A stretch of DNA of 64,000 bases from Glandiceps talaboti (taxonomy: Eukaryota > Hemichordata > Enteropneusta > Spengelidae): NCBI RefSeq assembly GCF_964340395.1, contig NC_135549.1, forward strand, positions 1,298,501-1,362,500, in the 5' to 3' direction. The notes under the pieces are model-generated. The model saw only the letters and a list, made by a program, of their open reading frames with translations. It was not told where the DNA came from and did not search any database. Shown here in pieces: positions 12,768-63,582 of the stretch (positions are counted from its first letter, which is position 1; each line of letters starts with the position of its first letter). Made by a program: the position numbers and the translations under genes.

Positions 12768-12804
<37 letters not shown>

Positions 12805-12881: not shown

Positions 12882-12921
<40 letters not shown>

Positions 12922-13094: not shown

Positions 13095-13134
<40 letters not shown>

Positions 13135-30700: not shown

Positions 30701-33264
30701 TTTAGTTTCTTTTCTAATGTGTTTTGGTTCCTTTGAATGTTTGCTCTGTTCTTTGGTCTGTTCTGGCAATCTGTTCTGTCTCCTTGAATGTTCTGGCAGT
30801 CTGCTTGGTTCTTTTGTATGTTTTGGCAGTCTGCTCTGTTCTTTTGGATGTTCTGGCAGTCTGCTCATATATGGTGCATATGGCTGTGAACGTTGTCTGG
30901 CACTGGTTTGATGCCTCAGTTCTGGGCGGAAATCAAGTTCCCTCCAACTTCTTGGCATCTTCCTGGATTTCTGATTATTGTTTGAGTTGTTTGTCCCTCG
31001 TCGATACAGAACCTGACCTTCACAGTTGTTCTTTCCGTGTTGTGTATCATTACCCACATTCTTACCGTTGTGTTCTGTAACCTTACTGCTCTCTTCTAGC
31101 CATGACAGGACATCTTTAACTTTCTCCTTTGATATCTTTTCCTGTATCAGATAATCTTCTCTTCTTTCATGAGGTCTATGAAACTTTGGACTAGGTCTCA
31201 TTTTTTCTGGTGTATCTGCATCACAAAATCTGGAATCCATACTCCATACTTCCGGGTCACTTGGACACACATAAGCTTCAGCTTTTCCAACACTTGATTC
31301 AGTTTTTGCAACTGGCACATAAACTTGTTCTCTGTCTACTGCTGTTTTGTCATCACACTTCATATCTGCAGCTGAGTTAAGTGGACTGTGTACTTCTGAA
31401 GACTGTGTATCTCTGCTGTCATTACTTTGACATGGTCCAACTGATCTCTTCACAGGGCTACCACTTGTTCCTTGATGAGTACTTGATTGAGTCCGAACAG
31501 CCTTCCCACGTCCTCTACCATTACCAACCTGACGGGGTTGCTGACTCTGTTCCTCCTGGTTCCCAAGTACTTCTTCTCCTCTCTCTAGCCAAGGGTCACT
31601 CACAGCTTTCTTGACATTATCCGCCCTGATATTATTCCTGGACATTGTGGGAGCTGTTTCCTTCAAGTTTCTAGCCGATAACTCTGTTTTAGATTCCATA
31701 AAATTTATCTCGCTGTCACTTATCCCTTCTTTTTCTTCTTTTATCTGGCACAATCCTCCAATGTCTCTCTTTCTGAGCTGAGACATAACATCGGTTTTAA
31801 CTGTCTTCTCACTTTTTTTGCTATTGTTTTTTTCTTCCTGTACTTGTTTTTCACTTTTTCTGCATTTTCTTCCTTTCATGGTAACCTCTTCACCTTTCTC
31901 ACTGACATCACTAACCTTGTCTGGGGCTTCCTCTTTTTTAATCAGTTTGATAACTTTATGTTTTGATACTGTACTTGATCTGCTACCATGGGATATCTCA
32001 CTGCTAAGTTCTGTGTCCGATACACTCTCAGTGGAATGACTCGAGTCATTTCCTTCTGTGTCTGAAAACAATTCATGAAGTCTCAATGAATACTACTTGA
32101 TATCAACAACAATAATTTGCTAATCATAATTTCATCACTGTGAAAAACAACTTACTTCAAACCTTTTGGTAAACATATTTCTTTTCACCCAGATATATGT
32201 CAGTTGGAGGAATATTGTTTTCCAATACCAGTATTTCCAACAAAAGTACTGCATATTATTACGTATTTTACTTGTGCCAGTTGTACGAGCATACTAATAA
32301 TATTTGAACTGCAGTGCAATACTGAAAACACTACTGCATACCTGCATGTACTTGATATGCAAATGAAGGTGTGATCATTCATTGAACACAAAATTGTGTG
32401 ATCGCACAATGTTATTTGTATGGAAATTTGCCGTTTCAGATAAACCTATGTAATAATAACGGAACCCCATTCCTTGTGAGTTCCAGTGTGGGAACTTAGG
32501 GGTATTTGCACTCTTGTTTACAGTGTTTTCTGCTGCACTTTCACAAGTGTACTGCTGAATAGAACACTGCAAGCACTCATGCAGATACCCCGAGTACACC
32601 ACACTTGCACTATAAGTCACAGGGCTCTGTCATATCATCTATAAACTTACCGGTCTCCTCAGAGGGTAACATAGCACTGATCCATAGTAGTCTATCCAAG
32701 CACTTTCCAACTGTAGAACTAATGTCCTGATAACGTCTGTGAAATCGATGCTTGTCACTCTCTCTCAACAGTTTTTGTGCAACTGTTACAGCCTGGGAAA
32801 GAAAGTAATATTCTTGTAAAGTAAATATCTTTACAGTTAATGTCAACATTTGTTCTTCAAATGAAGATTCATCTATGTTGGTAATCCACTGGATGTTAAG
32901 GTTTGGTTTCAAACACAAATTTGAAAATTGTTACCTGAACATTTCGACTGCATACTTTAGTCTTTGTCAACAGATTGACCCATTATTCATACGAACGCAT
33001 GAGCTTACTAATGTAAACAGACAAAACAGACACTGAGGGTGATACAAACTTTCAGGCACCGATCACGCCTTAGCACGACTGCCTTAGGGTCTAACAGCTA
33101 GACTATGTGTTTCATTGATTTATAAATATTCAGATTATACTTACTGGTCTGACTAAGTCAGAGAGATACTGGTGCATCTGTTCTTCTTGTTCTTCTATAG
33201 CATTTAATTTCATCCTCAACTGACGTTTTCCTTCTTCCATAAACTTTTTCCTTGATGAGGCCAT
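12044..33264 (-). CDS. Multi-Tudor protein with CCCH finger and C-terminal RRM (TDRD type)
   Basis: Spliced gene with coding exons, 5' to 3', at 33145-33264, 32651-32792, 29763-32061, 29177-29358, 28105-28286, 25203-27589, 24345-24445, 23118-23309, 22798-22890, 22184-22357, 19756-19840, 19160-19313, 18289-18452, 17547-17603 and 12044-15101. All junctions are GT-AG and phase-compatible. The sum is 9390 nt, or 3129 residues plus stop. The order is a short helical N-terminus, a disordered charged region, Tudor 1 (about 815-1060), a disordered region, Tudor 2 (about 1585-1805), a CCCH finger (1877-1896), Tudor 3 (about 1920-2110), a repetitive Gln-rich tail and an RRM-like fold (about 3015-3095). 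The Tudor cores carry YVDYGN, YVDFGN and YVDYGN, so the cage Asn for methylarginine is present in each. Proteins of this type scaffold PIWI/piRNA granules; that role is inferred from the family. I cannot assign an ortholog: no RING, MYND, LOTUS or helicase domain is visible. The start is the first ATG in a good context (ACAAGATGG). Exon boundaries are high confidence; the function is moderate. Confidence 0.87.
12160..12390 (-). CDS. C-terminal RRM-like domain of the Tudor protein
   Basis: The order of predicted strands and helices fits an RRM: SLLLVQRLP (RNP2-like strand), a helix with FPMAMTLFNG, VCVTSISML, LGQAFVKFAT (RNP1-like, matching G-x-[AG]-F-V-x-[FY]), a helix with DDTDKAI, and DTLYLEKW. 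Tudor plus RRM is known in TDRD10 and in insect Vreteno-type proteins, but with a different order and size. The assignment is from motif reading only. Confidence 0.6.
15200..15412. repeat. About 20-bp degenerate tandem array, 10 copies
   Basis: The unit is near CAGGTGTAAGTAGGTATTCC. It lies in intron 14 just upstream (minus strand) of the last Tudor exon. Confidence 0.88.
15530..15613. repeat. 39-bp direct duplication
   Basis: Two identical copies containing CAGGACTTGTTAGTCACTCA. Confidence 0.9.
15775..16890. repeat. 25-26-bp satellite, about 43 copies
   Basis: The unit is near CTAGCATGACATTAGGTGAA plus CCCTGG, with CATGACATCGGG variants at the right end. It fills 1.1 kb of Tudor intron 14. 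Confidence 0.95.
16891..17546. other. Intron 14, unique part
   Basis: AT-rich intron sequence. The plus-strand frame at 17217-17483 has no splice or domain support. Confidence 0.5.
17547..22357 (-). CDS. Tudor gene exons 10-14: Tudor domain 3
   Basis: Exon 10 (22184-22357) opens the domain with EGSWVAVEM and HFWVQLPFG. Exon 11 (19756-19840) is an acidic linker. Exon 12 (19160-19313) carries GEIVCAQYTVDNRWYRAL. Exon 13 (18289-18452) carries VEVFYVDYGNSEWLPIS across the junction, and exon 14 (17547-17603) ends the SN-like half with NKRLIAHV. All phases agree. Intron 10 contains a 1.5-kb TIR transposon and intron 13 is mostly unique sequence. Confidence 0.87.
18030..18243 (-). mobile_element. 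Diverged copy of the same SINE family
   Basis: The minus strand reads GATGGCTGAGCAGTTAGC at the head. It shares GATGCTCAGTTTGACC and ACACAGGTTTTCCCC-like blocks with the element at 52.1-52.3 kb, in the same order. It lies in intron 13 of the Tudor gene, just upstream on the plus strand of exon 13. Confidence 0.6.
18770..19105. repeat. 18-bp repeat inside a larger degenerate duplication
   Basis: Three copies of TTTACTAGGCGAGACAAA (18895-18950) lie within two or three diverged copies of a longer block marked by CATCTTTACTTGCATA and TGAATGTTTACTAGG. Tudor intron 12. Confidence 0.75.
19549..19638. repeat. 41-bp direct duplication
   Basis: Two copies containing ATGATGTATTGGCAATATTC. Confidence 0.9.
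20112..21611. mobile_element. 1.5-kb non-autonomous DNA transposon with TIRs
   Basis: The ends are CAGGGCTCGAAATTCG and CGAATTTCGAGCCCTG, a perfect 16-bp inverted repeat, flanked by TAATT on both sides (20107-20111 and 21612-21616) as a candidate 5-bp target duplication. Subterminal copies of GTAGCCCA/TGGGCTAC occur near both ends. No transposase frame is present. CAGGG...CTCGAAATT ends resemble hAT-like elements, but an 8-bp duplication is not seen, so the superfamily is open. It lies in intron 10 of the Tudor gene. Confidence 0.75.
22322..22510 (-). repeat. Tandem duplications of an acceptor/exon start
   Basis: The 5' end of Tudor exon 10 with its acceptor (TTCATTCACAG, then GTCATCCAGTGACAAAGTAG and AAGCTATGTG) is followed upstream by two diverged copies. 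In the nearest copy the acceptor reads TTCATTCACAT, so AG is lost. The copies are about 75 bp apart. Confidence 0.8.
22573..22614. repeat. (GT)n microsatellite
   Basis: About 20 GT dinucleotides followed by degenerate GT/GC sequence; intron 9 of the Tudor gene. Confidence 0.95.
22798..22890 (-). CDS. Tudor gene exon 9: CCCH zinc finger
   Basis: The 93-nt exon enters in phase 1 (A/AG) and encodes CRVFSQEGRCYRGDTCPYEH, a perfect C-x8-C-x5-C-x3-H zinc finger (C1877, C1886, C1892, H1896). The longest open frame through this stretch is a different one and hides the finger. Exon 8 (23118-23309) and exon 10 both fix the CCCH frame. CCCH fingers usually bind single-stranded RNA; RNA binding here is inferred. 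Confidence 0.93.
23038..23056. repeat. Poly-C tract
   Basis: An uninterrupted C run next to exon 8 of the Tudor gene (intron side). Confidence 0.95.
23457..23915. repeat. 41-bp satellite with donor-like motif, about 11 copies
   Basis: The unit contains CAGCCAACCAGGTAAGTACT and GTTAATTCTACTGTGG. CAG/GTAAGT is a consensus 5' splice site on the plus strand, antisense to the host gene. The array lies in intron 7. Confidence 0.95.
24006..24180. repeat. 51-bp tandem repeat, about 3 copies
   Basis: The unit contains ACCACATGGAGATAGAATTT. Tudor intron 7. Confidence 0.9.
24545..24895. mobile_element. Interspersed repeat family D, longest copy
   Basis: The ends TCCCATATTTTACC and AAATATTGGGAATATAAAAT form an imperfect inverted repeat. 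Parts recur at 53659-53785 (TACCATGCAC..GCCA then AAAAAATATGGAAT) and, reversed, at 62530-62700 (ACCCTTAAGTCAC, GGGGATAACATAATTATA). It is in intron 6 of the Tudor gene. A MITE-like origin is inferred. Confidence 0.6.
25203..27589 (-). CDS. Tudor gene exon 6: SN-like half of Tudor 1, disordered region, Tudor 2
   Basis: This 2387-nt exon starts VSPPEGSVMW directly after a TTTATTACAG acceptor. The upstream CA/TG microsatellite and its frame are not coding. After the SN-like segment comes a long acidic Ser/Glu-rich region with a 10-codon minisatellite (ESLEDRT repeats, about 26625-26815). Tudor 2 follows, with DDKFYRAVVIDI and VFYVDFGNTELVSV. The exon ends TNEWTE(K) at an AAA/GTAAGC donor. Exon 7 (24345-24445) completes the extended Tudor unit with GILINQELVNLGLA, a typical SN-like ending. 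Confidence 0.86.
27634..27776. repeat. (AC)n microsatellite with ACAGAC prefix
   Basis: A long AC run in intron 5 close to exon 6. It opens several spurious frames, including the apparent upstream extension of exon 6. Confidence 0.95.
28105..29358 (-). CDS. Tudor gene exons 4-5: Tudor domain 1
   Basis: Exon 4 (29177-29358) encodes the first Tudor strands with the motif DDTWYRGRI. Exon 5 (28105-28286) encodes VDVLYVDYGNRERLTV and ends LAQ before a phase-0 GTACAG donor. A Ser-rich insertion between exon 4 and the YVDYGN strand makes this domain longer than usual. The flanking SN-like half is completed by the start of exon 6, as expected for an extended Tudor unit. Intron 4 holds a 38-bp satellite that resembles the exon 4 donor junction. 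Confidence 0.85.
28520..29115 (-). repeat. 38-bp satellite resembling the exon 4 donor junction, about 15 copies
   Basis: The minus-strand unit reads AACTGTCCATCTGAACACAG then TGTTTGTAAGTTTAAGAC. The real exon 4 end reads AACTCTCCATCTAAATACAG TGCAG/GTTTGTTTG. About 19 of 23 aligned bases match, plus the GTTTGT. The array starts about 60 nt beyond the donor. Confidence 0.85.
29763..32061 (-). CDS. Tudor gene exon 3: long disordered charged exon
   Basis: This 2299-nt exon is rich in Ser, Lys, Glu and Gln. It contains a run of imperfect 10-residue repeats around RLPEH/KEQS (about 30690-30870), a short coding minisatellite. Its last 40 codons start Tudor 1 (GSIVEVFVTDVISPAMFW). The acceptor is TGTTTTCAG and the donor TG/GTAAGT. 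The frame joins exon 4 through a split Cys codon (TG+C). Antisense open frames over it are shadows. Confidence 0.85.
32651..33264 (-). CDS. Tudor gene exons 1-2: N-terminal helical segment
   Basis: Exon 1 (120 nt, 40 codons, phase 0) begins MASSRKKFMEEGKRQLRMK and ends at a CCA/GTAAGT donor. Exon 2 (142 nt) follows a clean TTTCCCAG acceptor and encodes a Lys/Arg/Glu-rich, Leu-spaced segment ending LPSEE. The composition suggests a short coiled coil. No RING or MYND cysteines are present, which argues against RNF17 and TDRD1 orthology. A possible acceptor 28 nt before the ATG suggests at least one upstream non-coding exon. Confidence 0.82.
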
Positions 33265-39300: not shown

Positions 39301-42300
39301 CACATGTTCAAATCTGTTTCATATGCAAATTTATGAAAAATATTTCAAACTGTTTTAGTGTCGAGGAATTGGAAAAGAAGTCAGAAAAGGACTGTGATTT
39401 CTGTGCGTATCAATAGTAAGTAGGGTTTATTATTATTAATATCGTTTAAACTGAATCGTTTAAACTTGGGTTTATTATGCCTCATCAAGGGAAAAGCATT
39501 TTTAGTATCGCATGGAACTTTTGTTAATACCCCCCCCCCCCCCACACACACACACAAATTTACTCAGCTCACAAAGTGTTCATTTGTTGACACCATCTTA
39601 AAATGAATCCAGCTTGCAGTAGTCTCTGTACATGCATGGGTAATAATGCCTTGTGGACAACAGTTTATTTTGTAAGAACTTTTATTGAGTTAAAAACAGT
39701 TTGACTTAAATGAATTCTATTTATTTGAAAAAAATTACAGTTTTAAGTCTTAGCCTTGAAAGATGTGATCAACTATTAACTATAAAAACGAAGGTAATGT
39801 GATTAATATAGATAACTGTATAATTTCTCTACACCATGGTATTAGTCTTTCAACTTCCTTATACCTGATTCTTTACCCTTTTTTCTTACTTCCAGCAAAA
39901 CAGCAGAAGATACATTTGGTAGGATAGAATCAGACTATTCAGCTACAGCATCAAATACTTTCAAATATGATGGCTACCATGCACTCATAATTCTAAAATC
40001 ACATTCCCCATTGAATTATAATGAAATTCAGTTTTTGGACATGATGAACACTGCTATGAAATGGTAAGTTTTGTTGTTGTTTCTTTTGTTTTTTTGTTGA
40101 AGTTGTTTCATGTTTTTCATGTTTTCATGGTATATTTTTTTTTTTTTTTTTTTGGGGGGGGGGGGGGAGTTAGAATGTATGATCCAAATTTCATTTGAGT
40201 TGACTCGTACATGTATCAGACTACAGTTTATCAACTTGAACTGATACCAGTAACAAAGTGTCTAACTATTTTGGCGATAGGAGACCAAAATTATTTGATT
40301 AGCAAATTACCTAGCAAACTTGAGTTCAAGATTGGTGTTTTCCATACCACATTGCGTACAATACTGCTGGCTTGGTGTCTCACTTACTATGGCTACAGAT
40401 AAAGTAAAATTTACGTGGCACCAAAATCCTGAAGCTACTGTTACTATTTCAAGTTTCTGAAATAATATTGTTTGTCAATGATACTACTATAATCTCAACT
40501 TTATATTTGTAACATTTATTGCAGGTTTATGAAAGTATATGAAACAGACAAGAATTACAAATATCCACATTTGATGTGGGATAATTTACCCAAAGCTAGT
40601 GCCAGTCAGGTCCATCCCCATGCACAGGCCAGTGTTGGACCAGTCAGACATTATGGTAGGTAACAACCAGCACTGAAGGTGTCTTAAAATGCCCAGATCT
40701 AGCTTTGTTCAAGAGAATTTGATGGTGTCATAAATATGCAAATTAGGTCTAAAATGAGACTTCGGTAAAAATACTTCAAAATCTTCTCCGAAACTACTTG
40801 GTCAATTGATATTGAGGCATGGCAAACAGGATAAGAAAATGATGGTATTCACCATTCAAGACCCTAAAGTGGTGTGCATGCATGCATTTGTGAGTGTGTT
40901 TATTTGTTTGTTCACATTTATAACTATAAATTTGTCTTCTCCTTTCATTCCAGGGCTTATGGAACACATTCGCCTTACAGGAATAGACTATTCTAGAGAA
41001 CATGGAAGTAATTACTTTAGTGATCTTTTACAGGTACAGTAGTTGAATATAACACAGTCTTTCGTATCATTTCAGTCCCATGCAACAATAATCATTGAAG
41101 TTAGCCCTTTGTTGTCTGTACCCAATACTTTAGAGTTTCAGTAAATATTCATCACATAGAAAATAATGTTATGTCATTGAACTAAAATAGTGTAAGTTAT
41201 GTCATGAAACTAAAATATTGTAAGTTATGTCATAGAACTAAAATATTGTAAGTTTAAGTCACTGAACTTCATTTATTTTCAAGACATTGCATGATGGAAC
41301 TCGCTGCAGTGGAAATGATAATTGCATTAAGTTTTAGTGATCAAACATGTTTGCTAAGAGCCACATTCAACCCAAAAATATCAACAAAAAACCAAGATGG
41401 TTTACCCACAATGGTTAAATACAACCAAATCTATACTGTAAACATTGAATGTGAGATTCTATCAACTCAGCTAAAGTGTAAAGTATAGATCTGGTTGTAC
41501 CCACCCACTGTGGTTTGTTACTTACACTAATAGAACAGATGTTACTACTTGGACAATATAGTATAGATCTGGTTGTACCCACCCACTGTGGTTTGTTACT
41601 TACACTAATAGAACAGATGTTACTACTTGGACAATATAGTATAGATCTGGTTGTACCCACCCTCTGTGGTTTGTTACTTACACTAATAGAACAGATGTTA
41701 CTAGTTGGACAATATAGTATAGATCTGGTTGTACCCACCCACTGTGGTTTGTTACTTACACTAATAGAACAGATGTTACTAGTTGGACAATATAGTATAG
41801 ATCTGGTTGTACCCACCCACTGTGGTTTGTTACTTACACTAATAGAACAGATGTTACTAGTTGGACAATATAGTATAGATCTGGTTGTACCCACCCTCTG
41901 TGGTTTGTTACTTACACTAATAGAACAGATGTTACTAGTTGGACAATATAGTATAGATCTGGTTGTACCCACCCACTGTGGTTTGTTACTTACACTAATA
42001 GAACAGATGTTACTACTTGGACAATATAGTATAGATCTGGTTGTACCCACCCACTGTGGTTTGTTACTTACACTAATAGAACAGATGTTACTAGTTGGAC
42101 AATATAGTATAGATCTGGTTGTACCCACCCTCTGTGGTTTGTTACTTACACTAATAGAACAGATGTTACTAGTTGGACAATATAGTATAGATCTGGTTGT
42201 ACCCACCCACTGTGGTTTGTTACTTACACTAATAGAACAGATGTTACTACTTGGACAATATAGTATAGATCTGGTTGTACCCACCCACTGTGGTTTGCTA

Positions 42301-45160
42301 CTTACACTAATAGAACAGATGTTACTAGTTGGACAATATAGTATAGATCTGGTTGTACCCACCCACTGTGATTTGTTACTTACACTAATAGAACAGATGT
42401 TACTAGTTGGACAATATAGTATATGTCTGGTTGTACCCACCCACTGTGGTTTGTTACTTACACTAATAGAACAGATGTTACTAGTTGGACAATATAGTAT
42501 ATGTCTGGTTGTACCAACCCAATGTGGTTTGTTACTTACACTATAGATGTTACTCATCTAAGTTTTGTTGATGTTACTTGTTGAATGTGGCTCTTATCAA
42601 CTATGTTTGATAATTGAAACTGAATACCATCCTGATTTCCACCATACTCTAAATTGAGCAAGGGGAGAACTTTTTGGTTAATCGATCATATCCTGACAAA
42701 TCATAAAATCTTTTTCTATTTATGTTCTCTTTGTACTCCCTCTCAGTCAGCTCTCCTGGTTCTCTTGTTTTGACAGTCCCTGGATACCATAATAAAATTT
42801 GTATATTCTTTCACAGATACATACAGCCTTAGGTTTGACGACCACACTTGGCAATGCTACAGCCATGGCCTATCTCACTCCAAAGAAAGACTATGAAGTC
42901 ATTATCATGGATAAAACTGCTTCTACAGACTTCTTTAGATTGTTATATTATACTATTAAAGCCTTCATGGATGATTTACAACTCTTCGCTTGGAGTTTTG
43001 CAATGTTTCTACCAAAATTGGTAAGAAAATTCCCTTTTCAGAGCTGCCAATGTGGCATACTGGTACATATGGAATAATTGTATGATAGTGATCATATGGG
43101 GAGGGGGTGGGGTGACATTGTAGCGTGAAGCTTTTTTTTTTTTGAATTTTGTGATGTTCTACTCAAGCTGGTAAGAAAAGCAATTTCTCAGAGCTGGCAT
43201 ACTGTACAAGTTAATTAGAATGAGAATTTGCATCTACAAGAGAGTTTGGTAATTGTGTTGATACTTTTTACACACTAGTGAGTATTTGTTGTACACAACT
43301 AAGTACAAGTTGCTCCTCTTTCTCCCTTGTGAGTATTTGTTGTACACAACTAAGTACAAGTTGGTCATCTTTCTCCCTAGATGGTATTTGTTTGTACATA
43401 ACTAAGTACAAGGTGGTCATCTTTCTCCCTAGGGGGTATTTGTTTGTACACAACTAAATACAAGTTGGTCCTCTTTCTCCCTTGTGAGTATTTGTTGTAC
43501 ACAACTAAGTACAAGTTAATCCTCTTTCACCCTAGGTGGTATTTGTTTGTACACAACTAAGTACAAGTTGGTCCTCTTTCTCCCTAGGGGGTATTTGTTT
43601 GTACACAACTAAGTACAAGTTGGTCCTCTTTCTCTCTAGGTGGTATTTGTTGTACACAACTAAGTACAAGTTGGTCCTCTTTCTCCCTAGGGGGTATTTG
43701 TTTGTACACAACTAAATACAAGTTGGTCCTCTTTCTCTCTAGGGGGTATTTGTTTGTACACAACTAAGTACAAGTTAATCCTCTTTCACCCTAGTATTTG
43801 TTTGTACACAACTAAAAACAAATTGGTCCTCTTTCACCCGAGGGGGTATTTGTTTGTACATAACTAAGGACAAGTGGATTAGAGTGGCCTTATAAATGTG
43901 GTGGTCACTCTTGTGAACATTAGGGGGAGGGGTTTTGTCTTGAGCCAACAAAGTTCATTTATTTAGCTTGTGAGACATTGTATGATCATCCCTAAATGGT
44001 AACAGTTGACTGTATCTGTATTCACAGGAGCCGTATGTTAGTCCAGACTATGATGATATCCCAGCCATCGTCAGAATCATTAGTAGAGGTCAAGCTAACA
44101 GTCCACGCAATGATATCAGTGCTATGGAATTATTTGCAGTAAGTTATTCCATCTCTACTTGTTTTAGGAAGGACAATATATTGTTCATGGTTCCAAGAAT
44201 CAAAGGACAGTACAATATAGTTACTTTGGGAACGGTAAATTGGAAACGAATATGACATTTTGATCCGTCTACTACAGACTACAGACCAGGATTAATGTTT
44301 CTCTCTGAACTGGCTACTACAGATCAGGATTAATGTTTCTCTCTGAACTGGCTACTACAGACCAGGATTAATGTTTCTCTCTGAACTGGCTACTACAGAT
44401 CAGGATTAATGTTTCTCTCTGAACTGGCTACTACAGACCAGGATTAATGTTTCTCTCTGAACTGGCTACTACAGATCAGGATTAATGTTTCTCTCTGAAC
44501 TGGCTACTACAGATCAGGATTAATGTTTCTCTCTGAACTGACTACTCCGTAGTAGACAGATGAAAATATTGCATTCATTTCCAATTTACCATTCCTAAGT
44601 AACTATGTTGTACTGTCTTTGTTTTAAGATATTCTGACATCTGTATTAATTATGAATATGGAAATGCAGTGGTACAAGAATCACACTGGAGATTTAGGAT
44701 GTGAATAAACTTAATGTAATGCTGATACAGACACAAGATGAAAATTAATTTAAAAATTTCATAGGAGTTTTGTTTCCTTAAATTTCAAGGTACTGAGAAT
44801 TATATCATTTTTGTGTTTTGATGAGAAGTTGTAACAGGCATATAAAATAGGATTCTACGCCTACTTACACATTTCATCATATGTACAGTCCAAGATAGAC
44901 ACCATGTAATAAATTCATTGTAATTTTCATATTTTTTGCAGGTTTCAAATGTCAATATTGATCCATTTAGTGTCATAGGCCATGTGGAAAGGTCTGTAGC
45001 CAAGCATAGAAAGGAGTTGGAGGCATTACATGACAAGGAGGAGGAGGATGAACAAAAGGAACAGCCAAAGGCAGATGAAAACAATGTTGATAAAAACAAA
45101 CAGTCAGAAAATGGTGAAGTAAATTTAAAGGAAAATGATGAAATACAGAATAAACAATAA
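35358..45160 (+). CDS. Membrane-anchored HIT/GalT-superfamily protein
   Basis: Eleven coding exons at 35358-35576, 36504-36613, 37246-37384, 38565-38671, 39359-39415, 39896-40063, 40525-40655, 40954-41033, 42817-43020, 44028-44138 and 44942-45160 sum to 1545 nt (514 residues plus stop), with all phases compatible. Residues about 24-46 form one hydrophobic segment (KKLFLIAACIFGVAFYGW) after a short basic N-terminus, suggesting a type II signal anchor. C204-x2-C207 and the motif SQVHPHAQASVG (H297, H299, Q301) match the zinc-type cysteines and the nucleotide-transferase HPHxQ of galactose-1-phosphate uridylyltransferase and its HIT-like relatives. The C-terminus is acidic, Lys/Gln-rich and probably disordered. 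A second ATG at 35403 has a better context (AAAATGG) and keeps the anchor. The substrate is unknown; a role as a nucleotidyl transferase or hydrolase in the secretory pathway is inference. The exon 2 donor (GTTGGA) and exon 1 donor (CAT/GTAGGT) are weak but are the only phase-consistent choices. Confidence 0.87.
35631..35813. repeat. Long near-perfect hairpin in intron 1 of the HIT-like gene
   Basis: Arms 35631-35714 and 35731-35813 pair over about 83 bp. The inner 43 bp (ending GTCGTTTCGATGTTTAAC) are perfectly complementary, with a loop of about 15 nt. The outer part has a few mismatches. It could be a foldback MITE or a small-RNA hairpin. Confidence 0.85.
35831..35978. repeat. Second, diverged hairpin of the same family
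   Basis: The left arm starts AGCTGCAATAGTTGTAACG and the right arm ends GCTACAAGAATTATCGCAGC. The outer ends match those of the hairpin at 35.63-35.81 kb (AGCTGCAATAATTGTAG). The two elements are 17 nt apart, suggesting tandem insertion or duplication of one foldback element. Confidence 0.7.
36300..36365. repeat. (CAGA)n microsatellite
   Basis: Twelve or so tandem CAGA tetranucleotides in intron 1 of the HIT-like gene. Confidence 0.95.
36655..36925. repeat. Degenerate repeat of about 47 bp, 5-6 copies
   Basis: Copies share TATCATGGAAGTGCT, TGGGAGAAG and TAGAA in order, with many substitutions. Intron 2 of the HIT-like gene. Confidence 0.75.
37625..37750. mobile_element. Short MITE-like inverted repeat
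   Basis: The left arm CTAGTCTGTAAGGTACGCCA continues TGACGGGTGCCCTCAC. The right arm GTGAGGGTGAAACGTCACGA continues CATATCTTACAGTCTAA. The arms are about 37 bp with a centre of about 50 bp. It lies in intron 3 of the HIT-like gene. Confidence 0.7.
39055..39240. repeat. 83-bp tandem repeat, about 2.3 copies
   Basis: The unit contains ATAATGTTTTTGGTATTGCA and CTGCAGTGTA. Intron 4 of the HIT-like gene. Confidence 0.9.
41165..41268. repeat. 27-28-bp tandem repeat, about 4 copies
   Basis: The unit contains GTCATGAAACTAAAATATTG. It sits just left of the 78-bp-satellite element in intron 8. Confidence 0.88.
41341..42622 (+). mobile_element. TIR element with 78-bp satellite core, copy 1
   Basis: The left end has AAGAGCCACATTCAAC and the right end GTTGAATGTGGCTCTTA as its inverted counterpart, each with a shared AAACATGTTTG/CTATGTTTGAT flank. 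Between them are about 14 tandem copies of a 78-bp unit (41485-42545; GATCTGGTTGTACCCACCCA core). Because 78 is a multiple of three, both strands show long artefact frames. The element lies in intron 8 of the HIT-like gene. The design resembles pearl/Helentron-type elements with internal tandem repeats. Confidence 0.8.
43135..43215 (+). repeat. Decayed duplicate of exon 9 end and donor
   Basis: TTTGTGATGTTCTACTCAAG CTGGTAAGAAAAG followed by TCTCAGAGCTGGCATACTG aligns with the end of exon 9 and its intron (TTGCAATGTTTCTACCAAAA TTG/GTAAGAAAAT ... TTTCAGAGCTGCC). The copy keeps a donor-like GTAAGA. It lies about 145 bp downstream of the real site. Confidence 0.75.
43268..43870 (+). repeat. 51-52-bp array with acceptor-like motif, about 12 copies
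   Basis: The unit contains TGTACACAACTAAGTACAAG and TCCTCTTTCTCCCTAGG. The pyrimidine tract plus TAG resembles a 3' splice site in the sense orientation of the host gene. Intron 9. Confidence 0.92.
44203..44622. mobile_element. TIR element with 38-bp satellite core
   Basis: The left arm 44203-44275 (AGGACAGTACAATATAGTTA ... GGTAAATTGGAAACG) is the imperfect reverse complement of the right arm 44550-44622 (CATTTCCAATTTACC ... AACTATGTTGTACTGTCTTT). Between them are seven copies of a 38-bp unit (CAGATCAGGATTAATGTTTC). It lies in intron 10 of the HIT-like gene. Confidence 0.8.
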
Positions 45161-50094: not shown

Positions 50095-52425
50095 ACTACA
50101 ATGACCAAACATATTTGATAAGAGCCACATTCAATCAAGAAACGTCAACAAACTTAGATATAATCTGTCCTATTAGTGTAATTAACAAACCACAGTGGGT
50201 GGGTACAACCAGATCTATACTATATTGTCCAAGTAGTAACATCTGTACTATTAGTGTAATTAACAAACCACAGTGGGTGGGTACAACCAGATCTATACTA
50301 TATTGTCCAACTAGTAACATCTGTCCTATTAGTGTAAGTAACAAACCACAGTGGGTGGGTACAACCAGATCTATACTATATTGTCCAACTAGTAACATCT
50401 GTTCTATTAGTGTAAGTAACAAACCACAGTGGGTGGGTACAACCAGATCTATACTATATTGTCCAAGTAGTAACATCTGTTCTATTAGTGTAATTAATAA
50501 ACCACAGTGGGTGGGTACAACCAGATCTATACTATATTGTCCAAGTAGTAACATCTGTTCTATTAGTGTAAGTAACAAACCACAGTGGATGGGTACAACC
50601 AGATACTATATTGTCCAAGTAGTAACATCTGTTCTATTAGTGTAAGTAACAAACCACAGTGGATGGGTACAACCAGATCTATACTATATTGTCCAACTAG
50701 TAACATCTGTCCTATTAGTGTAATTAATAAACCACAGTGGGTGGGTACAACCAGATCTATACTATATTGTCCAAGTAGTAACATCTGTTCTATTAGTGTA
50801 AGTAACAAACCACAGTGGATGGGTACAACCAGATACTATATTGTCCAAGTAGTAACATCTGTTCTATTAGTGTAAGTAACAAACCACAGTGGATGGGTAC
50901 AACCAGATCTATACTATATTGTCCAACTAGTAACATCTGTCCTATTAGTGTAATTAATAAACCACAGTGGATGGGTACAACCAGATACTATATTGTCCAA
51001 CTAGTAACATCTGTCCTATTAGTGTAATTAACAAACCACAGTGGATGGGTACAACCAGATACTATATTGTCCAAGTAGTAACATCTGTTCTATTAGTGTA
51101 AGTAACAAACCACAGTGGATGGGTACAACCAGATCTATACTATATTGTCCAAGTAGTAACATCTGTTCTATTAGTGTAAGTAACAAACCACAGTGGATGG
51201 GTACAACCAGATACTATATTGTCCAAGTAGTAACATCTGTTCTATTAGTGTAAGTAACAAACCACAGTGGGTGGGTACAACCAGACATATACTATATTGT
51301 CCAACTAGTAACATCTGTCCTATTAGTGTAAGTAACAAACCACAGTGGGTGGGTACAACCAGACATATACTATATTGTCCAACTAGTAACATCTGTCCTA
51401 TTAGTGTAAGTAACAAACCACAGTGGGTGGGTACAACCAGACATATACTATATTGTCCAACTAGTAACATCTGTCCTATTAGTGTAAGTAACAAACCACA
51501 GTGGGTGGGTACAACCAGACATATACTATATTGTCCAACTAGTAACATCTGTCCTATTAGTGTAAGTAACAAACCACAGTGGGTGGGTACAACCAGACAT
51601 ATACTATATTGTCCAACTAGTAACATCTGTCCTATTAGTGTAAGTAACAAACCACAGTGGGTGGGTACAACCAGATCTATACTATATTGTCCAACTAGTA
51701 ACATCTGTCCTATTAGTGTAATTAATAAACCACAGTGGGTGGGTACAACCAGATCTATACTATATTGTCCAACTAGTAACATCTGTTCTATTAGTGTAAG
51801 TAACAAACCACAGTGGGTGGGTACAACCAGATCTATACTATATTGTCCAACTAGTAACATCTGTCCTATTAGTGTAATTAATAAACCACAGTGGGTGGGT
51901 ACAACCAGATCTATACTATATTGTCCAACTAGTAACATCTGTTCTATTAGTGTAAGTAACAAACCACAGAGGGTGGGTACAACCAGATCTATACTAAACA
52001 TGAGTCAGGTCCTTTGAATTTTGTGCTCACTGTTTATATTGTAGGTCAGGTTGCACCCATACATCACCAGATTCATAATAATAACGGTAATACCTCGGTA
52101 ATAATCTTTATTCGTCCAAATACATTTGCAAATTTGTTGAATGTCGCCACAAGAGCAGCGCCCGAGTGTTGAAGAAGCAGGAAGAAACCAGCATACCCAG
52201 GGAAATCTGTGTTGTTCAGCAGGGTCAAACTGAGCATCACCCTTCTTACATACAGACCTTGTTAAATTTTAATCGAACTCAGACTGCAGAGGCGTACAAG
52301 CTAACCACTCAGCCACCGACAACCCTATGTTACTGTATGATTTATTACTTACACTAATTGGACAGAGGTTACTTATCTCATTATTTGTGGCTCTTGTTCA
52401 TTGAAACTGAACTCAATTATACTTT
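50095..52425 (-). mobile_element. TIR element with 78-bp satellite core, copy 2 (inverted)
   Basis: The left end TTGATAAGAGCCACATTCAA matches the reversed right end of copy 1. The right end has TTTGTGGCTCTTG and ATTGAAACTGAA, as in copy 1's right flank. The core (50160-51995) has about 23 units of 75-78 bp in the opposite orientation to copy 1. Some units have lost 3 nt (AGATACTAT for AGATCTATACTAT). A SINE occupies the interval before the right end. Confidence 0.8.
52073..52320 (-). mobile_element. tRNA-derived SINE
   Basis: On the minus strand the head reads GGTGGCTGAGTGGTTAGC (A box) and, about 30 nt on, GAGTTCGATTAAA (B box), resembling a Ser/Leu-type tRNA. A body with GCTCAGTTTGACCCTGCTG and a tail with AATAAAGATTATTACC follow. 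It sits just inside the right end of the second 78-bp-satellite element, so it inserted into or was captured by it. A diverged copy of the same family lies at 18.0-18.2 kb. Confidence 0.72.
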
Positions 52426-54942: not shown

Positions 54943-57900
54943 TTAGTCAATCTCCTTCAAGATGGCCATCACTGTTTTTCCATTGAAATTTTTCTGTCCT
55001 CTTACTCTCTTCATTACCATTGTGATCAAGTTATTTATTTTGACCATCATCTTCAGGTCACCATTACTTTTAATCTTCATCGATTGTTGCTTACAAAACC
55101 TTGCAACATGTATGTAACATGCAGAGTTACCTGCAATCTCTAACAACCTAATGTAATCAACAGAAATAGAAGTCTTTGATGAAGACACAGCCAAATTAAA
55201 TACATTTAAAGGCCAGGGTTTCAATCTTGGGTTCTCATGTTAGTGTTAACTTAACATTAAAGACACAAGATTACATACTAGTTATTCATTATAATTTTTT
55301 AATCTTAACCAACTTCTATAACTCTGACATACAAGTGTTTCTCATCCTGATACTAATCTTAATTTAAACTGTGCATGAAGAGCAGTGTATCCAAAAACAG
55401 TTTGTCATCAAATCTATTTACTCATCCACATGTGGCATATAAATGTTTATCTTTATACTTCATACTACTTCCCTCTCCAGTGATGTTATAACTTTAATAC
55501 TACTTGCCTTCCCCTTCTATTCAATACAATACAATACAATACAATACAATACAATACAATACAATACAATACAATACAATACAATACATGTACAATATAA
55601 TACAATACATGTACAATATAATACAATACATGTACAATATAATAACGGCATAATATACATGTATTTTCCTCACAAGCTTGAAAGAGAACCAGCTACCCAA
55701 CACACCATCAACCCATCCTATCCAACCCACCATCAATCCAGCCGCACCCAATCCAACCCACCATCAATTCAATTCATCCTATCCAACCCATCCTAGCCAT
55801 TCAACCAACTACAATTCAGCATCCATCCAGCATCTGTTCATTCATTCATTTGTTTGCATGGATGTCCATCTGTGCACCCACCAGCCAAAAACAGTTGACC
55901 CATCAACATCAATCCATCCATTAACCTGTCAATCTATCAACCCTTCCACTTCAATCCATCTATCCATCCATCCACCTATCCTCTCCATTCTATTTGTCTT
56001 TTGAATTACTCACTTGTTACACAGACACTGGTACTACTATCGAATTACTCACTTGTTACACATGAACACTGGTACTACTATCGAATTACTCACTTGTTAC
56101 ACATGGACACTGGTACTACTATCGAATTACTCACTTGTTACACATGGACACTGGTACTACTTTTGAATTACTCACTTGTTACACATGAACACTGGTACTA
56201 CTATCGAATTACTCACTTGTTACACATGGACACTGGTACTACTATCGAATTACTCACTTGTTACACATGAACACTGGTACTACTATCGAATTACTCACTT
56301 GTTACACATGGACACTGGTACTACTATCGAATTACTCACTTGTTACACATGAACACTTATACTACTATCGAATTACTCACTTGTTACACATGGACACTGG
56401 TACTACTTTTGAATTACTCACTTGTTACACATGGACACTGGTACTACTATCGAATTACTCACTTGTTACACATGAACACTTATACTACTATCGAATTACT
56501 CACTTGTTACACATGGACACTGGTACTACTTTTGAATTACTCACTTGTTACACATGGACACTGGTACTACTATCGAATTACTCACTTGTTACACATGAAC
56601 ACTTATACTACTATCGAATTACTCACTTGTTACACATGGACACTGGTACTACTTTTGAATTACTCACTTGTTACACATGGACACTGGTACTACTATCGAA
56701 TTACTCACTTGTTACACATGGACACTGGTACTACTTTTGAATTACTCACTTGTTACACATGGACACTGGTACTACTATCGAATTACTCACTTGTTACACA
56801 TGGACACTGGTACTACTATCGAATTACTCACTTGTTACACATGAACACTGGTACTACTATCGAATTACTCACTTGTTACACATGAACACTGGTACTACTT
56901 TTGAATTACTCACTTGTTACACATGGACACTGGTACTACTATCGAATTACTCACTTGTTACACGGACACTGGTACTACTTTTGAATTACTCACTTGTTAC
57001 ACATGAACACTGGTACTACTATCGAATTACTCACTTGTTACACATGAACACTGGTACTACTTTTGAATTACTCACTTGTTACACATGGACACTGGTACTA
57101 CTATCGAATTACTCACTTGTTACACATGGACACTGGTACTACTTTTGAATTACTCACTTGTTACACATGGACACTGGTACTACTATCGAATTACTCACTT
57201 GTTACACATGGACACTGGTACTACTTTTGAATTACTCACTTGTTACACATGGACACTGGTACTACTATCGAATTACTCACTTGTTACACATGGACACTGG
57301 TACTACTATCGAATTACTCACTTGTTACACATGGACACTGGTACTACTATCGAATTACTCACTTGTTACACATGGACACTGGTACTACTTTTGAATTACT
57401 CACTTGTTACACATGGACACTGGTACTACTATCGAATTACTCACTTGTTACACATGGACACTGGTACTACTATCGAATTACTCACTTGTTACACATGGAC
57501 ACTGGTACTACTTTTGAATTACTCACTTGTTACACATGAACACTGGTACTACTATCGAATTACTCACTTGTTACACATGGACACTGGTACTACTATCGAA
57601 TTACTCACTTGTTACACATGAACACTGGTACTACTTTTGAATTACTCACTTGTTACACATGAACACTGGTACTACTATCGAATTACTCACTTGTTACACA
57701 TGAACACTGGTACTACTTTTGAATTACTCACTTGTTACACATGGACACTGGTACTACTATCGAATTACTCACTTGTTACACATGAACACTGGTACTACTT
57801 TTGAATTACTCACTTGTTACACATGGACACTGGTACTACTATCGAATTACTCACTTGTTACACATGGACACTGGTACTACTTTTGAATTACTCACTTGTT

Positions 57901-60900
57901 ACACATGGACACTGGTACTACTATCGAATTACTCACTTGTTACACATGGACACTGGTACTACTTTTGAATTACTCACTTGTTACACATGGACACTGGTAC
58001 TACTATCGAATTACTCACTTGTTACACATGGACACTGGTACTACTTTTGAATTACTCACTTGTTACACATGGACACTGGTACTACTATCGAATTACTCAC
58101 TTGTTACACATGGACACTGGTACTACTTTTGAATTACTCACTTGTTACACATGGACACTGGTACTACTATCGAATTACTCACTTGTTACACATGGACACT
58201 GGTACTACTTTTGAATTACTCACTTGTTACACATGAACACTGGTACTACTATCGAATTACTCACTTGTTACACATGGACACTGGTACTACTTTTGAATTA
58301 CTCACTTGTTACACATGGACACTGGTACTACTTTTGAATTACTCACTTGTTACACATGGACACTGGTACTACTTTTGAATTACTCACTTGTTACACATGG
58401 ACACTGGTACTACTATCGAATTACTCACTTGTTACACATGAACACTGGTACTACTATCGAATTACTCACTTGTTACACATGGACACTGGTACTACTATCG
58501 AATTACTCACTTGTTACACATGGACACTGGTACTACTTTTGAATTACTCACTTGTTACACATGGACACTGGTACTACTTTTGAATTACTCACTTGTTACA
58601 CATGGACACTGCATGGTACTACTATCGAATTACTCACTTGTTACACATGAACACTGGTACTACTATCGAATTACTCACTTGTTACACATGGACACTGCAT
58701 GGTACTACTTTTGAATTACTCACTTGTTACACATGAACACTGGTACTACTTTTGAATTACTCACTTGTTACACATGGACACTGGTACTACTTTTGAATTA
58801 CTCACTTGTTACACATGGACACCGCATAGTACTACTTTTGAGTTACTCACTTGTTACACATGGACACTGCATGGTACTACTTTTGAATTACTCACTTGTT
58901 ACACATGAACACTGGTACTACTTTTGAATTACTCACTTGTTACACATGGACACTGGTACTGCTTCAATTTCAAGATAAGGCAACGTGGTTTTCAGAAACT
59001 CTTGGACCACACCTTGGTGACACAGATTCCTCTCCAACATACCCCTCAAGAGGGCAGTAGATGCCAAATATTGTTGCTGTTGAAAGTAATATAACACAAT
59101 TTCGACTTTGAGCAATTAGTCATTGGAACAAAAGATGTGGGATTTCATTTCAGGCCATATTCCACTTTACAAAAAAATGTTTTTGTCAAATTCAAGATCA
59201 TACTCCTGACCTATCGTGTCCTCAACGGTACCACCCCATCATATCTGTGTGATCTTCTCACTGTGTATAAACCAGCCCGCTGCCTTCGTTCTAGTAATCA
59301 ACAACAACTAGTTGTACCGAGAGTTGCATCAAAGTCGTTTGAAAATCATGCTTTCTACTCTGCTGCACCGAAGCTTTGTAACAATCTCCCATGTCACATC
59401 AGACAATGCACATCAATTGACACTTTCAAAACACAAGTTAAAAACTCACCTTTTCACCCAGATTTAGAGTGTAATGTAAAGTGAATTACTCTTACAAATA
59501 TTTGTTGAGATTTATTTTACACATCTATCTTAGTCGAAACCTGTTTAAATCATTTTACATTATCATTTTAAAATCAGTTATTGTTAATTCCTATTTTTTA
59601 GAGTGTTTTACTTTTGTTGAGACAATGTTTCTGCATTCATTTGTTTAGTTTTTTACCTTTTGCAGCCATACTTGTAATTTATTCGTGCAGTACTTTTTGA
59701 TTTATTCATTTTTTTCTTCTGTGAAGTGACTATTAAATAGTATGAGCACTGTCATATATAAATGTTTCATTGTTATAATTATGGTTCATTAGTTCTAGAA
59801 ACAGCAGTCAAAACATAAAAAAATCTTCATTATTTTCTCCAATTATAATTTTCATGAACTAAGCTTGAACAGGTGTGATTATATTACTGCTTTGCTCGTT
59901 TTTTTCATTCAGCTGGAAAAGACTTGTGACACAATTAAAAGGTTTATCACTACTTGACTTTCAACGTTACTTGTATTTTCTTTGGCTGAAAGTCAGACAA
60001 ATTATTTCGAGATAAATTTACTGCTTAAGATATAATGCCTTTATCAGGTGAAAAGGTCAGCTCTTTGCTGTATAAAAATATGTTTTCCTTTATTATCCAA
60101 CATGCATTTCTCAAGTTATTCATATGGAATGAGAAGAAAATTACATACTCAACAGCTAAGTCTGAGAATGTAGGCCTAATGAATAAGATTGGTATCTGTC
60201 AATATCAATCACATTGTCTGCATTTATACAATGATATAGGGAGGCTTTCTGTGTTAAGTGTCTCATGTTTCCCATGTAAACTCTTGATACATTATCAGAA
60301 AAGTTTAAAGAAAATGTTTACTGCACAATATCACGTACTGTAGCCGACTGCAAAGTACAGCCAAGTATAGTTCAATACCCACAGCTACAATTAATTGATA
60401 ACTCTTTGTTAAAAGTCATAGCCCCCCGCCCCACTTCTGATTACATACAATTAGGTTATTCATAGCCCCCCCCCCCTACTTCTGATTACATACAATTAGG
60501 TTATTCATAGCCCCCCCCCCCACTTCTGATTACATACAATTAGGTTATTCATAGCCCCCCCCCCTACTTCTGATTACATACAATTAGGTTATTCATAGCC
60601 CCCCCCCCCCCTACTTCTAATTACATACAATTAGGTTATTCTCCAACATATATAAAATAGTCCAAAGGAAATAATTTAAGACATTAATTCTCACTATCTT
60701 GCTTCTGGGAGGTACAAGAGACACCAATATAAATAAATGCTTACCTTTGCATTGAATGCTGACATAATTCTTGTAAAGAAATAGGTTCTACATTCACTAC
60801 TTGCATGTATGACTAAACTGATGCAGATTATTACATTCACCATCAATACCTTGAAAAAGGATCACAAAATATGAATAATTAATTACTACTACTACTACTA

Positions 60901-63582
60901 ATAATAATAATAATTTTTTTAGGTCAAAGTTGGTATTTGCATAAATACTACATGATTTATTTTATTCATTTCTCTATTACACTTCATCACAGGCAAGTAA
61001 AGTAGTCTGATTGAAACCACTGATCTGACTTTTAGTGGAAATGACACCAATTCAATTTGGTAGAAATAACAAAATGCAAAGCCCCAAAACACATGATTTG
61101 TTCCACTTACATCACCTTCCATTGAGAGTGATGGTATCTCAAAATCCATGCCACGCTCCTTTGATAGTTTGTGAATCCATTCCATCACAGGATTCTGATT
61201 ACTGCTCCCCTACAACAAACAAAACAATGGAAATCACTTTTTTATTTTTTAGAATAGGTGAGGGTAGGTAGAATTTTAAAAAAAAAAATCTTTTTTGATG
61301 TGCACGTATCTAGTTCAGGTAGTTATATTTTCCATGTGATCTCTGTGTTATTGGTTTCTTTCCATTAGATGTAAAGCCATTACAGATTGGAAGAACAGTT
61401 TTATATTGTCTTTTCCAGTCAAGGTCAGTTTCCGCATCCACTATTTCTCATGAGACTTCACAATTTTATTACTTTTTTTCATGGTTTAGAAATGACATAT
61501 GTCGATTTACTTATAAAGAAAATCTTTTTTTTTTAAAAACAATTCTGATTGAAAAGTACACTTGCAACTAACAATGTGTTTGTGATAATAAATCAATACA
61601 CATATACTTGTATACAATTTTCAAAAGTTTTAACTATTTTGTACTTTAAGCCCCGAAAAGCCATAATTACAGCATTACATCCATACAATACAGGAAGGTG
61701 TCAAAATTATAATTTTATATTTCTATGAATTTCCACTTACAATTATGTCCTCAATTCTGGCAAATTTGGTTTCCTTGGGTACAAACATATCCACTGTCCA
61801 TTTCAGAAGATTCTGTAAAGAGCAAATTAAGATTGGCAAATGCCTTGGTAAGATAACGACAAAGGTAATATTTATTCAGTTGAATGGCAATATTGGAAGA
61901 CTATAATCTAAACATTGCAGTTTTGAAAATGGACAAAGATTATGTTAATTGTTTATTCATGTCTACTGATGGTAATTGTAGACTAAGGCAGACTATGGTT
62001 GTCTACACATAACCTCTACCATTCATTCCAATTGGCCAAAATCACTGTTAACTTATATTTTGTTTTTTAATGGAGTTAAAATCTGGAAAAGTCTCCCGAA
62101 GATCCTTAGAACATCTACTAGTTTGAATTCTTTTAAAATTAAATGTAAATCTCACTTTTTACATCAAATGTAATTTTTCTGATGTGCTACCCTGGTGTGT
62201 CGGTCATTATTAATAGTATTGTTTTTTACCCACTTCTTAATTTGCCATTATTTATTTTTTTATATATGTTAATGCATATTGTAAATTTCCCTTACTCGAC
62301 ATTGTGTTAGAAGCGCCTTTGGCTCAACAATTTATCGAGTTTAAATAAAGTCATAAAAAAAACAAAAAAACAAAAAAAACATAAGTTTTGAACACCCTTT
62401 TGATCACGGTGTAAATTGAGACCTGATTGGACATAGACAGTCATGTATTCTAATTGACAGCAAAGATTAGATGCTGAATCATCTACACAAGTTATGGAGT
62501 TGTAGTTAAGGGCATATTATATAAATATTACTCCTGTATGCTATTTGTCTTGGAGCTCAAGAAAATAAGTTATCTTGAGGGGCCTTATCGCTATAAATAT
62601 TAATGAGTATTCATAAACCCTTAAGTCACAGGTATTTTCCTGCAAAATGAAGAAAAATATTGGGGATAACATAATTATATCTCTCTCTGCAAGCATAACT
62701 CATGAAAAATAGGAAAACGAATGATTTGATTGACATTATGTAACCAACAATGTCAACTTAAATTGTTATGATGTAAAACAACAAGGGTAAAAATCACATA
62801 TTTTTATTCAAATATATGCAGCTTGTGAGTGGTGTGATATTTGATTTTGGAACTAAAGATAAGACTTTTGATACTTATAATTATATCACTGACATTAGTG
62901 TTAATAAAAAAGTCTGTATTTATCAGACAATACCACAGTATCAAAATCTGCACCAGTACAAAAATCATACAAAATACATGAAAGTACTACTAAAAGAATG
63001 CTACAATTGCTACTCACAAAATAAAGGTACTTTCTATTCCAAAGTAGAAGTAGTCTTGTCCAGTGGACAAAAAGCTGATCAACCTTACAAGAATTGGTCT
63101 TCCATTCCTCAATGAGAATCTGAAGAATGGGGGTCAGGTCCGTGCTTTTCTTGCAAGTGAAATAACAGTCGTTGTAATCATACTTTGAGCAGTTCACCAC
63201 CAAAGTTTTCACTAGGTCTTGTAGCTCCTGTCCAGTCTTGGTAAAGAAATCTCTTGGCAGTATCACCTTACGTGGTACTTCAACAAAGATGGCAGCCTGC
63301 TCTAAATTACCAGATTGGGCTAGAATAAGAGCAACCTCACGAGAGGCACAATTTGATACCTTCAAAAGGGGAACATTATTGCCAGATTGTTCAACCTGTA
63401 CCAATGTAGCATACAGTAAAGCCTTCTGTGGACTAGATAGAAACAAAATCAACATGAAAATCCTAAAATCAATATTAAATGATTTGTCAAATATATTATC
63501 CCTGAGAAAACAACATCTGTTAAAAACCAAGTCCTTACCATGGCTTTTTGACTAAGTCATCAGAAAGTGAACAAAACAAATA
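54943..63582 (-). CDS. 3' part of an unrecognised helical protein gene (continues off the right edge)
   Basis: Seven exons, 5' to 3': 63539-63582, 63084-63432, 61741-61812, 61116-61209, 60745-60758 (14 nt), 58937-59076 and 54943-55147. They join to an open frame of 305 residues ending KEID plus TAA. The longest exon encodes LILAQSGNLEQAAIFVEVP and similar Leu/Ala-rich amphipathic helices, suggesting a TPR/PPR-like or other solenoid fold. Later exons give QQYLASTALLRGMLERNL and LLEIAGNSACYIHVARF. I do not recognise the family with confidence; the C-terminal part of TOPAZ1-type germline proteins is one candidate to compare. The donor after 63084 (AAG/GTTGAT) is weak; a better GTAAGG site 5 nt earlier would break the frame with the next exon. 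Two LINE 3' ends, other repeats and a 3-kb satellite lie in its introns. The 5' part is outside the window. Confidence 0.75.
55148..56000. other. Gene 3 last intron, non-satellite part
   Basis: Contains an (ACAAT)n array at 55520-55590 that passes into a 21-bp repeat (ACATGTACAATATAATACA, to 55640) and degenerate CCATCCA/CAACCCA sequence (55690-55980). The acceptor is at the left end. Confidence 0.75.
56001..58960 (-). repeat. 41-bp satellite, about 72 copies, containing a 5' splice site
   Basis: The unit on the minus strand is GTACCAGTGTCCATGTGTAA followed by CAAGTGAGTAATTC and a variable GATAGTA or AAAAGTA. The array fills most of gene 3's last intron and is continuous with the real exon end at 58937-58960. 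Two main variants (TATCG and TTTTG on the plus strand) are interspersed, with occasional GAACAC for GGACAC. A few units have a 4-nt GCAT insertion near 58610-58870. Open frames reported across it come from the periodicity only. Confidence 0.95.
58937..59076 (-). CDS. Gene 3 penultimate exon whose donor seeds the 41-bp satellite
   Basis: The exon is 140 nt, with acceptor TTACTTTCAACAG and donor AACAA/GTGAGT. It encodes QQYLASTALLRGMLERNLCH through AVPVSMCN and leaves in phase 2. The last exon (54943-55147, acceptor GATTACATTAG) begins with the one nt needed to complete AAG, then LLEIAGNSAC. The last 23 nt of this exon are also the exonic part of every unit of the neighbouring array. Confidence 0.8.
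59130..59785 (+). mobile_element. 5'-truncated LINE 3' end (reverse transcriptase C-terminus)
   Basis: The open frame 59137-59484 contains FKIILLTYRVLNGTTPSYL, YKPARCLRSSNQQQLVVPR and AFYSAAPKLCNNLP...SIDTFKTQVK. This is the conserved tail that follows the reverse transcriptase domain in CR1/Jockey-like non-LTR retrotransposons. About 300 nt of T-rich 3' sequence follows, ending near ATATATAAATGTTTCATTG. The element lies antisense in an intron of gene 3. It lacks the catalytic RT and endonuclease and is dead. Confidence 0.8.
60415..60645. repeat. 45-bp tandem array with poly-C, 5 copies
   Basis: Each unit has CATAGCCCCCCCCC of varying C length, then ACTTCTGATTACATACAATT. Gene 3 intron. Confidence 0.93.
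60745..60758 (-). CDS. 14-nt micro-exon of gene 3
   Basis: CATTCAATGCAAAG lies between TTATGTCAG and GTAAGC on the minus strand. It enters in phase 1 and leaves in phase 0, exactly what is needed to join 61116-61209 (ending GAA G) to 58937-59076 (starting CAA CAA). The joined peptide is SMEAFNAKQQYLASTALLRG. A longer 25-nt reading with an acceptor 11 nt earlier breaks the frame. Confidence 0.6.
62045..62393 (+). mobile_element. Second LINE 3' end with A-rich tail
   Basis: A short frame encodes NGVKIWKSLPKILRTSTSLN and SFKIKCKSHFLHQM before a stop, the same type of RT C-terminal tail as at 59.2 kb but from a different family. A 3' region with GCGCCTTTGGCTCAAC and AATAAAGTCATAAAA runs into an A/CA-rich tail (62355-62392). 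It is 5'-truncated and antisense to gene 3. Confidence 0.72.
62530..62700. mobile_element. Reversed partial copy of repeat family D
   Basis: Shares TTTGTCTTGGAGCTCAAGAA-like sequence, ACCCTTAAGTCAC and GGGGATAACATAATTATA with the reverse complement of 24690-24895, in the same order. It is in an intron of gene 3. Confidence 0.55.

Follow-up and report, generated by a model that had tools for sequence, protein, structure and literature searches.

Predicted exons of gene 3 at the array locus

The window, i.e. the whole stretch of 64,000 nucleotides that was analysed, carries on its minus strand a predicted gene, gene 3, and one of its introns is largely occupied by a tandem array. Exons E7 (63018–63432, 415 nt), E8 (61741–61812, 72 nt) and E9 (61111–61209, 99 nt) were predicted, as was a less certain candidate exon, E10 (60745–60849, 105 nt, phase 0-0); exons E2, E4, E5 and E6, assigned to the same gene as E7, lie outside the window, in L009. 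Exon E11 (58937–59076, 140 nt), which has an acceptor and an open frame, is entered in phase 0 and left in phase 2, and its terminal 24 nt make up the exonic portion of the repeated unit; the native donor comes right after 58937. The intron behind it (55148–58936, 3789 nt) contains, in this order, 71 further donors, simple repeats and the acceptor ATTACATTAG. It leads to exon E12 (54943–55147, 67 codons and a TAA), which is in phase with the first donor and open in that frame only, with no stop in the frame that this donor requires and seven and eleven stops in the other two. The start-side neighbour of gene 3, in the opposite orientation, is presumably GPKOW, as its open reading frame reads like that protein.

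Altogether, the splice phases of the nine successive exons E4–E12 are compatible and yield a continuous open frame of 1495 nt that ends in TAA. Protein searches and comparisons with PDB and Pfam found no homologue of the predicted protein, and codon usage fails to distinguish E10, E11 and E12 from open DNA taken at random, of which a fraction of 0.39, 0.34 and 0.35 of the segments, respectively, scores as high. Judged from frames and phases, the predicted exon at 58937–59076 is likely to be real. An earlier note on this DNA had stated that the array is continuous with the exon end at 58937 and that the acceptor at 55148 restores the frame for the native donor alone. Both statements hold for the predicted exons, since the first copy continues E11 and E12 is open in that single phase.

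The array repeats a predicted 5' splice junction

From the end of E11 into the intron, TRF detects a 41-bp tandem array on the minus strand (56003–58960; 71.9 copies, 94% matches), that is, a junction minisatellite of 72 copies with the native one included. The donor core AACAAGTGAGTAA occurs 72 times, and the 71 spacings measure 41 bp (65 cases), 45 bp (four) or 39 bp (two); therefore, no degenerate or mutated copy is skipped between the cores. The donor AACAA/GTGAGTAA is kept in all the copies, the native one included, and the 18-mer TGTAACAAGTGAGTAATT in 71 of the 72, with AAC for AAT in the single exception. Variation among the 41-bp units (65) is confined to five columns, all of them outside the donor core. 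The 45-bp variants are confined to the first eight units, on the exon-adjacent side, and the copy at the exon edge shows, for most of the variable sites, the most frequent form.

The last 24 nt of E11 are identical to the unit end and the match breaks one base further, whereas at the other side the last copy passes into unique intron, so that unique exon borders the array on one side and unique intron on the other. This 24-nt identity, together with the unique sequence on both sides, defines the unit as 24 nt of exon end plus 17 nt of intron start, with a seam uncertain by about one base. The earlier note had described about 72 sense-oriented copies of a 41-bp unit derived from a 5' splice junction, each with a good donor and continuous with the native exon end, and this description is borne out by the repeat and donor counts, the comparison of exon and array, and the frames. 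Its division of the unit into 23 and 18 nt differs from this by one base, within the uncertainty of the seam. On the other hand, its term "satellite" is too strong. Satellite DNA implies one tandem family at many loci, whereas a search of the genome (590,416,875 bases in 47 contigs) with the first 501 bp of the array, which gives lower bounds for match counts, returned at least two matches outside it, at 68% and both at one place on contig C7. There, a 41-bp array of 20 copies (L022:4355–5176) aligns to the array at 56003–58960, possibly by chance between equal periods.

The order of unit types bears on how the array grew. Their identity at lags of 2, 4 and 6 units is 0.33, 0.36 and 0.37, as compared to 0.11, 0.20 and 0.11 at lags of 1, 5 and 7 and to an expected 0.24. 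Such a two-unit rhythm points to growth by duplication of several units at once.

Later donors would lead to an immediate stop

With donor 1, translation proceeds for 114 codons to the terminal stop. With any of the later donors that were translated (2, 3, 6 and 72), it ends at codon 48 of the exon frame, after VSMCNK. Indeed, AACAA is always followed by GTGA, so every later donor reads AAG TGA. The claim of dozens of equal donors, with AAC AAG TGA immediately past the first and stop-containing mRNA predicted from distal ones, is thus confirmed in the sequence. The predicted protein is kept only by donor 1, the donor farthest from the acceptor. The stop precedes the splice junction by 37 nt in the case of donor 2; with donors 3, 4 and 5 the distance grows to 82, 127 and 168 nt. 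Since this distance is at least 82 nt from donor 3 on, nonsense-mediated decay would be expected there. Acceptor-like sites inside the array score at best 0.1, versus 1.9 for the exon acceptor on the same simple scale; the unit therefore does not supply both a donor and an acceptor, as a new intron arising by tandem duplication would need.

Junction arrays recur at exon ends on two chromosomes

The whole genome was searched for three perfect donors spaced 24 to 54 bp apart. The pattern CAGGTRAGT gave 396 + 513 matches versus 185 + 136 for its reversal, counted as matches and not as arrays, and AAGGTRAGT gave 573 + 374 versus 195 + 346, a control at the match level only. As arrays, forward CAGG was found seven times on C1 and C2 (69.9 Mb) and reversed CAGG four times on C1–C9 (245 Mb), once on C1; the rates differ with p 0.004, and with p 0.07 when C1 and C2 only are compared (7 versus 1). 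Among the matches listed, AAGG arrays number five on C1 and at least seven on C2 (covered to 32.96 of 33.94 Mb), and perfect-donor MAG/GTRAGT arrays on the two contigs number 19.

The 5' edge was read for all 19, and 13 of them start, by this reading, at an acceptor-bounded open exon running straight into the first donor. For four, a protein match ends at the array: isoleucyl-tRNA synthetase (IARS1, C1:14322138, E 4.4e-7), methionine aminopeptidase 2 (METAP2, C1:28912368, E 9.8e-14), the cap methyltransferase CMTR1 (C2:17091915, E 7e-6) and neuron navigator 2 (NAV2, C2:21784183, E 8.2e-6). At the level of sequence comparison, these matches prove that the four sister arrays sit at true exon ends. 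Two further assignments are weak, namely a TRP/polycystin-like channel exon (C1:2288029; Pfam E 1.5e-4, just below the cut-off; PDB E 0.034) and the start of a DEAD-box protein (C2:31286592, E 0.048). The 46-bp junction array directly behind the TRP-like exon (C1:2288029–2292966) has listed matches that span about 4.9 kb and is apparently longer than that at 56003–58960. The remaining seven exons were called from the edge reading alone; Pfam gave no match for five of them and PDB none for C2:6805258, and C2:32061030 was too short for the test. Three arrays are ambiguous at their edges (window position 23459, C2:23880081 and C1:1679285) and three have no exon there (C1:991643, C2:32964729 and C1:31433504, the last about 290 nt into the intron behind a TBK1-like exon). 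The first of the ambiguous arrays (23459–23918, plus strand) has a 41-bp unit with the perfect donor CAG/GTAAGT in 10 of 11 units, the remaining one reading CAGGCAAGT. Since this array comes after a short open stretch and is itself followed by one that ends in TGA, it might be an intron made wholly of array.

Across the 13 arrays, the exon tail repeated in the unit ranges from 5 to 46 nt, and the sister units that were measured are 28–58 bp long. An automatic test for an acceptor and an open frame is passed by 14 of the 19 arrays, and among 6000 random positions the pass rate is 48.75% (binomial p 0.025), with Fisher p values of 0.14 for exon length and 0.22 for open length. It passes 12 of the 13 exon readings (C2:2507912 fails) and also the ambiguous arrays at window position 23459 and C2:23880081. 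Taken alone, this test is too weak to carry the exon-end claim. In the copies measured, a unit length divisible by three occurs in none of the 14 junction arrays (the present one plus its 13 sisters), versus 23 of 69 sampled arrays; the probability, (2/3)^14 = 0.003, belongs to a pattern noticed post hoc, and unit lengths are mixed in several arrays. If the pattern holds, arrays with in-frame slips would be lost, or their copies would become exon.

Tandem arrays in general do not favour donors

A sample of 241.5 kb, made of the window and of 10-kb pieces, three of them neighbouring and fifteen from elsewhere, contains 69 tandem arrays covering 14.8% of it; the window itself is richer (26.7%), and 14 pieces chosen by position only hold 27 arrays, or 11.8% of 137.5 kb. 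The possibility that minisatellites carry donors in general was rejected, since the best donor score of the 69 arrays is not above that of their reversed units (Wilcoxon p 0.50). A score of at least 9 is reached by three forward and two reversed units, and against shuffled units the donor score has p < 0.05 in seven of the 69. Outside arrays, 198,385 bp of sequence contain 12 occurrences of the donor 9-mers and 14 of their reversals.

Several other arrays of the window were recorded. Two (41482–42547 and 50163–51996) share a 78-bp unit with AGT/GTAAGT and lie 7.6 kb apart in opposite orientation. Four minisatellites (26619–26807, 30742–30866, 12743–13219 and 14431–14715) are located inside long open frames of the minus strand, of which one has a Tudor domain and another an RRM-like match.

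Relation to known boundary repeats

Tandem repeats at exon/intron boundaries are described in amphioxus as "mirages", in Adh3, the globins BflGb6 and BflGb9 and TnC, with similar ones in PGBD5, according to the available parts of PMC3087553 and PMC3902484. The same parts give units of 10–72 bp and unstable length for Adh3, and report regular splicing, shown by RT-PCR or stated without aberrant mRNA. The array at 56003–58960 likewise consists of short tandem units (41 bp x 71.9), each of which, given the predicted exon, extends across the exon/intron boundary and repeats its splice signal, with the donor core in 72 of 72. In structure, it is of the kind already known as amphioxus mirages. Three differences should be mentioned: the host here is a hemichordate whereas that of the mirages is a cephalochordate, 72 copies contrast with the 3–6 units quoted for BflGb6 in the accessible text, and an exact survey here finds the class at many genes.

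The mitochondrial contig (C40, 51,222 bp) was considered with regard to the host. It contains COX1 three times, 15,435 bp apart, and is probably an assembly concatemer. The gene order reads ND2-Asn-Trp-Ala-Tyr-COX1-Ser-COX2 (ARAGORN with the bacterial code, which reported the Trp tRNA as SeC and no tRNA for Cys or Asp). Four ATA codons of COX1 align to Ile, Ile, Val and Met of PDB chain 7o37_a, and AAA, AGA and AGG are absent from the stretches of ND2, COX1 and COX2 that were read. Amphioxus mitochondria read ATA as Met, and an amphioxus-type mitochondrion was rejected on the ATA codons at Ile-like COX1 sites, the absence of AAA, AGA and AGG, and the gene order. As far as the portion of PMC2697986 at hand goes, echinoderms share ATA = Ile with hemichordates, Balanoglossus lacks AAA, and this conserved gene order is retained in hemichordates. 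The order, the ATA use at the four aligned COX1 sites and the missing codons therefore suggest a hemichordate such as Balanoglossus.

In human paralogues, internal tandem repeats with units of about 30 bp lie at exon-intron boundaries and alter splice structure, as stated in the accessible part of PMC2812944. They resemble the present case as minisatellites at a gene boundary; however, whereas they are taken to give recently duplicated genes new introns or alternative exons, the intron here is flanked by unique sequence, with no new intron shown. The Rogers model, in which introns are gained by tandem duplication of AGGT (as cited in the part of PMC3087553 seen), also involves duplication of splice signals, whereas here the donor alone is duplicated (acceptor-like score of 0.1 versus 1.9). 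Outside amphioxus, the human repeats (PMC2812944) were the only boundary tandem repeats found in the open-access texts, as far as these were available, and the open-access literature on splice-site choice and tandem repeats offered nothing further to the point.

A probably tolerated minisatellite and its alternatives

The explanation that we favour, and hold with good confidence, is that of a neutral junction-duplication minisatellite whose first donor is used and whose remainder is intron, one locus of a genome-wide, mirage-like class. It starts from what is observed, namely the sequence, the phase logic and a class whose members in known genes lie exactly at exon ends. On this view, some 41 bp over the 5' splice junction (24 nt of exon and 17 nt of intron) would first have been duplicated in tandem, and multi-unit duplication would then have expanded the array to 72 copies. 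Splicing would probably use the first, exon-attached donor and leave the mRNA unchanged, so that copies 2–72 would be ordinary intron under neutral drift. Use of any later donor would meet the immediate TGA, and from donor 3 onward the message would presumably be degraded through nonsense-mediated decay. Use of the first donor, with the rest as intron, is made plausible by the amphioxus data and by the arrays in housekeeping genes. Indeed, the sister arrays at IARS1, METAP2, CMTR1 and NAV2-like exons and the undisturbed splicing in amphioxus fit tolerated, neutral minisatellites. Of the three options raised in the earlier note, neutrality therefore agrees with these arrays and with the mirages, whereas a splice-site decoy or a length-dependent regulator finds no support.

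One published regularity counts against the favoured reading. Of two comparable donors in competition, the one nearer to the intron usually wins, for reasons stated to be unknown (Roca 2013, as cited in the part of PMC6002489 available), which would favour the last copy and not the first. Exon definition or transcription order may decide the choice instead.

The copy number could alternatively tune expression, some transcripts using later donors and yielding decay-sensitive mRNA, so that a longer array would mean less protein. All 72 donors are equal in their core and any later one results in a stop; moreover, U1 is said to protect 23 + 12 nt (PMC6002489, in the text at hand), less than the 41-nt spacing, so many donors could be bound together. 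Yet similar arrays occur at exons of housekeeping genes, amphioxus mirages are reported to leave splicing undisturbed in what is available of PMC3087553 and PMC3902484, and there is no sign of a conserved array length, which makes tuning unlikely. It is less probable still that 58937–59076 is no real exon and that array, acceptor and frame agree by chance. An open exon of at least this length is no rarity, being present at 12% of random positions, and the searches mentioned above found no homologue of gene 3, but the phases of E4–E12 join into the 1495-nt frame and E12 is open solely in the required phase. About as improbable is an exon that grew into the edge of an older array and borrowed its junction from the minisatellite: only 24 nt are shared and the pre-array state is seen in no relative, but the array separates unique exon from unique intron, the edge copy has the commonest form at most variable sites, and the repeated exon tails of METAP2, IARS1, CMTR1 and NAV2 code for sequence common to distant homologues, so that at those four loci the exon came first.

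Returning to the neutral minisatellite, a bolder version, to which we would give a small chance, takes these arrays as a standing class in which the exon-attached donor beats up to 71 or more identical intron-proximal donors; units that are multiples of three would be selected against, and every slip to a later donor would break the frame and be destroyed.

The locus offers one intron with dozens of identical donors 41 nt apart, of which the one that preserves the predicted protein is the most intron-distal. Together with its sister arrays, which vary in unit length, count and gene within one animal, it amounts to a natural experiment on donor choice, and the class could separate exon attachment, exon length and transcription order as determinants of that choice. 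Furthermore, it would extend the mirage phenomenon beyond cephalochordates, to a hemichordate.
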